Source: Candidatus Parvarchaeota archaeon (GTDB lineage Archaea > Nanobdellota > Nanobdellia > Parvarchaeales > Parvarchaeaceae). Taken from it: a DNA stretch of 36,130 nt. Position numbers and translations under genes: made by a program. Under the pieces are notes generated by a model. The model was not told the DNA's origin and ran no database searches. It worked only from the letters and a program-made list of their open reading frames with translations. Shown piece by piece: positions 9,866 to 13,812 of this stretch. The DNA lies in contig JAMCRO010000032.1 of assembly GCA_023380615.1 (NCBI GenBank), positions 1 through 36,130 on the forward strand, read 5' to 3'. Each line of letters opens with the position of its first letter. Position 1 is the stretch's first letter.

Positions 9866-9977
9866 TGGGGTTGCCAGGATTTGAACCTGGGTCAAGCGGT
9901 TTCTTCTTAATCATCCTTAGCGTCATTTTTCCAGACAAGCTGGAGCCGCCTATTCTGCCTGGTTAGACTACAACCCC
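9866..9977 (-). tRNA. tRNA-Trp(CCA) with a 39-nt intron at 37/38 (9901-9939)
   Basis: Acceptor GGGGTTG/CAACCCC, discriminator A, T-arm CCAGG-TTCAAAT-CCTGG, anticodon stem GGCGG/CCGCT around CTCCAG^intron^A. Confidence 0.92.
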
Positions 9978-12690: not shown

Positions 12691-13701
12691 CTAATTAATC
12701 TTTTTGTATTGAGGATAAGTACTAATTTCCATTATTACACTATCGGTTTTAACGGCTACTCCTTTTTTAACGGTTTTTATTTCCTCTGTCGACAATACAG
12801 ATTTACCAAGTGCTATCAGTTCACCTTTCAGTGTCATTATCCCCACAACTTCATCCTTTTCGAAATTAGTAAGTTTAACTATACCTGGAACAGCGAGTGG
12901 AGAACCATGACAGATTGGATCTACTGCCGTATCTGAGATAAAGGCCTTCGGCAAGAAGTCTATTGCTGATTCTATGCTGCCAAGACATTTGTTTAACAGC
13001 CGGTCATCATTTTCCTTTTCATAAAAATAAACTGCATCCTCTAAATCTTGCAGAGTAACCAAGTTGTCTTTTTCTGACAGCGTTGAAACCTTTGTTCTTC
13101 TTAGCTCGGTCATGTGTGCACCAACTTTTAGCTCTTCCCCCATGTCATGTATTAGCTTTCTTATGTAAGTTCCGGATTCTACACCAACTTTAAAAAGGAC
13201 ATTCTTTCCGTCTATCTCTAATATCTCAGAATAGTATATTTCTCTCTGTCTATACTGCCTTTTAACATGAGATCTAACTGGAGGTAATTGCATTATTTTT
13301 CCTATGAATTTGTTAAACGTATCTCTAAGTAATTGCTCATCAACCTCGCTGTGCAGATGCATCAGAGCGATGTATTCCTTTCCTCCAAAAAGAAGCACTG
13401 GGAGAACCTTCGTAGCGTTGTTTATGGCCAGTGGCAAAAGACCGGTTACGTTGGGATTTCTTCAATCTTCTAAAGTCCCTGAGTAACCCATCTTCTTGGC
13501 ACCTAATTCTGCCATGAGTTTCTTTGCTATGTAGGCTGCGGTCTTAGACCTTATACCTGCTGGCTTGTCCAGAAGTACAAAACCGTAGTTTATCCTCTCC
13601 GTTATACTTCTGTCCTTTGGAGCTTTGCCGTATCTGCTGTCGGTTTCTTCCTCTCTCAAGGAAAAGATTTCATGCTTGAAATCCTCCAAAGGTAGTTTCA
13701 T
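12691..13701 (-). CDS. cbf5: tRNA/rRNA pseudouridine synthase Cbf5 (archaeal TruB/dyskerin), interrupted by a 12-nt intron; join(13701..13470, 13457..12691) on minus
   Basis: N-half LDKPAGIRSKTAAYIAKKLMAELGAKKMGYSGTL; C-half PNVTGLLPLAINNATK...GKEYIALMHLHSEV...VGVESGTYIRKLIHDMG...GAHMTELRRT plus PUA domain. Both halves share a frame; in-frame TGA lies inside the 12-nt insertion. ORF track extends to a TTG at 13722; first ATG is 13701. Confidence 0.92.
13458..13469 (-). other. Predicted 12-nt archaeal BHB-type mRNA intron (AAGAUUGAAGAA)
   Basis: Outer helix GGGA/UCCC (13479-13476 / 13456-13453), central 4-bp helix CUUU/GAAG (13475-13472 / 13463-13460), 3-nt bulges AGA and AAA; cuts AG^A and AA^A give GGG ACT TTA GAT CCC AAC = GTLDPN. 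Confidence 0.88.
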
Positions 13702-13812
13702 TTCATTTAATCGTAAATTCAAAGATTAAAACTTTGCTTTTTATGCCGCTAACCAATTTATTTTAAAATAAATGAAATTTAATATTCTTTAGTTAAAATT
13801 GCAAGGATATTA

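Follow-up and report, generated by a model that had tools for sequence, protein, structure and literature searches.

A putative 12-nt pre-mRNA intron in the catalytic codon of cbf5 in a Parvarchaeota-type archaeon

In the window, by which we mean the whole stretch of 36,130 nt that was analysed, the cbf5 gene is interrupted by 12 nt that contain a stop codon and split the codon of the catalytic Asp. Comparison with homologous genes makes us very confident that this insert is a true pre-mRNA intron, belonging to the archaeal tRNA or bulge-helix-bulge (BHB) type; splicing itself has not been observed, and cleavage by EndA and ligation by RtcB are inferred. The host is a Parvarchaeota-type, ARMAN-4/5-like DPANN archaeon, which settles a point that an earlier note on this DNA, made from the letters alone, had left conditional: the intron lies outside the crenarchaeal setting. 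Pieces of this kind are found at the same spot across the phylum, and archaeal mRNA introns must therefore be more widespread, and smaller, than thought.

Results

The earlier note had described two Cbf5 halves in one frame, separated only by a short stretch with the 12 nt and an in-frame TGA, and this is what both the minus-strand sequence at the site (GGT TAC TCA GGG ACT TTA GAA GAT TGA AGA AAT CCC AAC GTA ACC GGT) and the minus-strand ORFs (13722..13462 with DKCLD; 13437..12691 with TruB, TruB_C_2 and PUA) show; the features are listed in Table 1. It had measured the frame from 13722. In close relatives, the ATG at 13701-13699 is preceded by in-frame stop codons, and on this comparison it is probably the start, the TTG at 13722 remaining as an alternative. 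Without the 12 nt, the frame is open and Cbf5 is intact, with 332-339 aa. The spliced product passes the NCBIfam equivalog cut-offs (359 bits against PRK04270, cut-off 242; 338 against TIGR00425) and, in the alignment that the note had proposed, matches archaeal Cbf5 chains of known structure, 2aus among them, from end to end, with the GTLDP motif intact. Excision of 13457-13468 would give an identical mRNA, and it is the BHB rule that assigns the intron to 13458-13469.

Table 1. Features of the cbf5 locus and of the window, and cbf5 introns in other families of the phylum
Feature	Position or intron length	Strand	Basis or remark
cbf5 exon 1 (DKCLD domain, first part of TruB_N)	13470..13722	-	Pfam DKCLD in 86-aa half
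cbf5 exon 2 (rest of TruB_N, TruB_C_2, PUA, stop codon)	12691..13457	-	Pfam and NCBIfam
Putative 12-nt intron AAGATTGAAGAA	13458..13469	-	in-frame TGA 13462-13464; phase 1; splits catalytic Asp codon G|AT
BHB/BHL element	13453..13479	-	outer helix GGGA/UCCC; central helix CUUU/GAAG; 3' bulge AAA; 5' bulge AGA merging into terminal loop
tRNA-Trp(CCA), predicted 39-nt intron	9866..9977	-	Rfam tRNA 43.6 bits; ARAGORN with introns; missed by plain ARAGORN
cbf5 introns, family f37	15 and 21 nt		same G|AT site
cbf5 introns, family f3	21, 21, 21 and 29 nt		same G|AT site
cbf5 intron, family f20	13 nt		same G|AT site
cbf5 intron, family f58	16 nt		same G|AT site
cbf5 introns, family f32	22 and 22 nt		same G|AT site

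A 12-nt insert is present at exactly the same place in 19 of the 27 same-genus species with a cbf5 and absent from the other eight. Its loop bases vary (GAT, CAT, TAT, AAT, GCC, GAC, GCT, TAA, CAA) and its helix bases are nearly fixed; at one locus (L028), CUUU/GAAG is replaced by CCUU/GAGG, a compensatory change. Of the 112 amino-acid columns that do not vary among the 19 intron-bearing species, just five are written with one and the same codon in all of them, and three of those five lie beside the splice site: GGG for Gly, TTA for Leu and GAT for Asp. All three codons vary among the eight intronless species, where the Gly is GGT or GGC and never GGG, the Leu is written with six codons and the Asp with two. 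Such a pattern, with flank codons fixed in the presence of the intron and free in its absence, is the mark of an RNA structure that has to be maintained solely in genes with the intron. The intronless species (G004, G012, G013, G015, G016, G019, G021 and G024) form a clade with support 98/93; the tree suggests, and would be consistent with, one precise loss within the genus.

It could be argued that the gene is a pseudogene or that the stop arose through faulty sequencing or assembly, all the more as the draft genome is fragmented, with N gaps and, elsewhere, a few scrambled stretches. The error reading is refuted by the recurrence of the insert in relatives, 19 species having been assembled independently with it. 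The remaining Cbf5 protein is also intact and conserved, synonymous sites at the intron flanks are more constrained than the rest of the gene, and Cbf5 is present in nearly all genomes of the phylum. A second intact cbf5 would, according to the earlier note, have overturned the intron; the draft genome (645 kb, 59.6% complete) yielded a single copy, and we give a decayed or misread gene next to no credence.

The intron is not confined to the genus. Two species of a sister genus (G030 and G031) have a frame-shifting 16-nt insert, TGTGATTCACAAAGAA, at the same site, and the identical G|AT site is occupied by introns of 13-29 nt in five more families of the phylum (Table 1), which answers the note's call to check related genomes for the same insertion. 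The other families were reached by scanning 380 genomes of the phylum for the pattern and by protein searches that break at residue ~84. The survey needed GGGA flanks or a broken protein match and relied on draft genomes; the counts of carriers are lower bounds, and further ones, especially with non-GGGA flanks, may exist. Four pattern matches (G354, G394, G289 and G078) were rejected as cbf5 introns, G354 after a closer check, G078 being by eye an intronless cbf5 and G394 and G289 having been judged by eye only. No archaeal intron-bearing cbf5 was found among plasmid records.

Altogether 31 introns from six families could be parsed, 12-29 nt in size, and every one contains an in-frame stop, some shifting the frame as well. 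The geometry expected of a BHB element, with a 4-bp central helix, 3-nt bulges and an outer helix between the exons, is met: both helices are paired in 31 of 31 introns, with covariation. The second central pair is UA in 23 introns, CG in 5 and AU in 3, the third UA in 25 and CG in 6, and the fourth UG in 20 and UA in 11, and across these three pairs, changes at the wobble positions of the exonic Thr and Leu codons go together with changes in the intron bases that they face. When the seven distinct helix combinations were re-paired at random, no more than 8 of the 5040 permutations left every helix paired. The predicted cuts, between the second and third bulge bases, bring the two halves back into frame, and each complete copy then encodes a full-length Cbf5 with GTLDP. 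The insert borders and the restored GTLDPNVTG of the earlier note are thus upheld by covariation, length variation and fixed exon flanks in the 31 homologs. A tree built from 64 Cbf5 proteins demands at least eight state changes for the intron, six of them forced by well-supported branches; being unrooted, it would allow either an old intron that was lost many times or repeated insertion.

The same collection bears on three ways in which the 12 nt could stay in the RNA. If the TGA were translated, by stop-codon readthrough or as selenocysteine, Cbf5 would gain four extra residues, and the insert in the window, a multiple of three in length with a single TGA, would allow it. The residues E-D-X-R would then replace the catalytic Asp, however; one species has a tandem TAA TGA and others have TAA, introns of 13, 16, 22 and 29 nt shift the frame, and the recovered genome gave no confirmed tRNA with a UCA anticodon, nor Rfam any Sec element. 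We consider translation of the stop very unlikely. (A predicted tRNA-SeC was rejected, being tRNA-Leu (CAG).) Translational bypassing, in which the ribosome hops across the 12 nt, is hardly credible at all: a hairpin at the gap and an internal stop codon do resemble bypass elements, but the gap is not flanked by matching take-off and landing codons, the insertion point is within a codon (phase 1), the length ranges from 12 to 29 nt, and the conserved geometry, a 4-bp helix with 3-nt bulge positions on either side, is that of a BHB intron. Finally, DPANN archaea are known for split genes, and gene callers would give two ORFs, as expected if Cbf5 were made of two separate polypeptides. The break would then run through the centre of the active-site motif and cost the enzyme its catalytic Asp; exon 2 lacks a conserved start, and the frame-shifted variants give no matching ends, all of which leaves very little room for a two-piece enzyme.

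The earlier note had drawn a BHB or bulge-helix-loop (BHL) element, and the helices of that drawing stand, being paired throughout. In isolation, the element, a 27-mer, folds into the outer helix, a 3-nt bulge, a helix of 4-5 bp and a loop of 6-8 nt, and because of this fold the 5' "bulge" sits in the terminal loop, as in a BHL. The full hBHBh' form is not attained, as the window copy, like the other 12-nt copies, has no inner helix; one is present in several longer introns and in the 16-nt form of the sister genus, a textbook BHB with the inner helix GUG/CAC. With a folding energy of only -5.7 kcal/mol and a z of about -1.8, the 27-mer is weakly folded at 37 C. This energy by itself could not establish the intron, which the comparative evidence does. 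A group I or group II intron or an intein is ruled out by the length of only 12 nt, and the Rfam matches in the window are tRNAs only.

In the splicing model that we propose, the cbf5 transcript would fold into the outer GGGA/UCCC and central CUUU/GAAG helices, the splicing endonuclease EndA would cut behind the second base of both 3-nt bulge positions (AG|A and AA|A), and the RNA ligase RtcB would link ...UUAG with AUCCC..., so that the catalytic Asp regains its GAU codon; the predicted spliced junction is ...GGGACTTTAG joined to ATCCCAA. Unspliced mRNA would, we infer, give no active Cbf5, and since translation of the unspliced RNA stops at the TGA, splicing would have to precede the first ribosome. 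Position, borders, structure, conservation, restored protein and the single EndA and RtcB genes come from sequence comparison; in the absence of RNA data, cleavage and ligation are inferences.

The genome of the window, G000, encodes one RtcB and one EndA, the latter of ~177 aa, near 1057-1590 of C13, with the Pfam N- and C-domains and a match to TIGR00324. The solved chain nearest to this EndA is 1a79, the M. jannaschii homotetramer, to which it aligns almost gap-free, and therefore no crenarchaeal- or ARMAN-2-specific loop is evident; judged by this alignment, the host EndA is of the single-gene alpha4 type. As a rule, same-genus genomes and other intron carriers have one PF01974 gene each, the exceptions being G188 and G392, where none was found, and G057 and G018, where the matches are split across contigs. 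The cell needs EndA anyway, given the tRNA-Trp(CCA) with a predicted intron in the window (Table 1), likely another substrate of the enzyme. Relaxed and BHL motifs are reported to be cut only by (alpha-beta)2 and epsilon2 EndA and not efficiently by the alpha4 type (PMC6379350), and their cutting has been described as limited to homodimeric and heterotetrameric forms (PMC8707768). An alpha4-type EndA faced with a BHL-like, weakly folding 12-nt form is a real tension in our splicing model.

About 574 ORFs of the intronless relative G016 have homologs in the genome of the window (G000), and a screen of these for other micro-introns revealed no clean insertion besides that in cbf5. The other breaks in the screen were N gaps or same-length scrambled stretches, which we judged to be assembly faults. 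Short same-length scrambled stretches with a stop, resembling assembly faults, were seen in otherwise conserved genes of G000 at L217, L194 and L226, which by their motifs alone may be a polX-like gene, a malic-enzyme-like gene (NNSLIFPAL motif) and a VIT-like transporter, respectively.

Discussion

The closest known counterpart is the cbf5 pre-mRNA intron of Desulfurococcales and Sulfolobales (Watanabe 2002; Yoshinari 2006; Yokobori 2009), which measures 16-44 bp and has been linked to the heterotetrameric EndA (PMC2738675). Gene, BHB-like motif and cuts between bulge bases 2 and 3 are the same, and in both the interior is variable and presence differs between related species. The interrupted codon, too, is that of the catalytic Asp, here G|AT of GTLDP, as judged against the statement in PMC2738675 and without a base-by-base comparison of phase. 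Since Crenarchaeota have an interruption in that very codon (PMC2738675), we regard the Parvarchaeota intron as a variant of the known one and not as an unrelated event, with common descent as a possibility only. It departs from the crenarchaeal intron in size, with 12 nt in the window and 12-29 nt across the 31 copies, and in its hosts, which belong to the Nanobdellota/Parvarchaeota and have a single alpha4-like EndA in place of the (alpha-beta)2 heterotetramer; neither the size nor the enzyme expected from the crenarchaeal case is matched. What is new are the DPANN hosts, the 12-nt length and the single-gene alpha4-type EndA. We found no report of DPANN or Parvarchaeum cbf5 introns in the open literature, subscription papers not being covered.

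The smallest spliceosomal introns known are about 15 nt, and 12 nt is below even these. The exceptional shortness inferred in the earlier note stands against the crenarchaeal cbf5 range, but with the qualification that putative 12-bp introns, unproven in that splicing was never shown, exist in rudivirus genes (Peng et al., as far as quoted in PMC2738675). Those are likewise 12-bp inserts in archaeal coding genes, but they need not disrupt function, whereas the cbf5 insert takes away the catalytic Asp and brings in a stop. Archaeal tRNA introns, reported from 11 nt upwards (PMC2738675), share the recognition geometry and presumably the enzymes, but the cbf5 intron lies in an mRNA, with no tRNA body to aid positioning. 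An mRNA as a substrate of EndA, inferred for our cbf5, is also known from the BHB intron of Haloferax HVO_1309, though that one lies in the 5'UTR and ours in coding sequence (PMC7714728); the authors of that 2020 study knew of one other archaeal mRNA case, the crenarchaeal cbf5 (PMC7714728).

BHB introns in coding sequence were formerly tied to one gene, one group and a special endonuclease, and they now occur at the same codon in at least six DPANN families. On balance, we lean slightly towards a broader interpretation in which the catalytic cbf5 codon is a pan-archaeal intron site, through ancient retention or repeated insertion, that in DPANN is processed by a lone, BHL-tolerant alpha4-type EndA, with an excised intron of as little as 12 nt and further introns in the same gene (G070). 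If true, a lone alpha4-type EndA acting on BHL hairpins in mRNA would break the rule that ties mRNA and BHL introns to heterotetrameric, homodimeric or epsilon2 enzymes. The age of the intron, the reason why this codon is a hotspot and the minimal substrate of alpha4 EndA are reopened as questions, and in dozens of genomes gene callers are likely to mis-annotate the essential cbf5, either splitting it into two fragments or calling it a pseudogene.

Other interruptions of Cbf5 were seen along the way. In G070 (L083, G070:C14:25300-26900), a second BHB intron is predicted in the same cbf5, about 60 nt upstream of the first and not seen in the related G104; read by eye, it has the form GUGG-UCCU-AC|A-UAGAU..AUCUA-AGGA-AG|U-UCAC, with 22 nt and an in-frame TAG, and its removal would restore PSGPTSHQ. 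In G202, G366, G289, G064 and G248, Cbf5 is split at residue ~188, which may by analogy reflect an insertion like that at another locus (L113:117-2642, G262), whose in-frame insertion of about 490 aa after GTYIRKLC matches Pfam Intein_splicing and LAGLIDADG_3 and is a LAGLIDADG intein.
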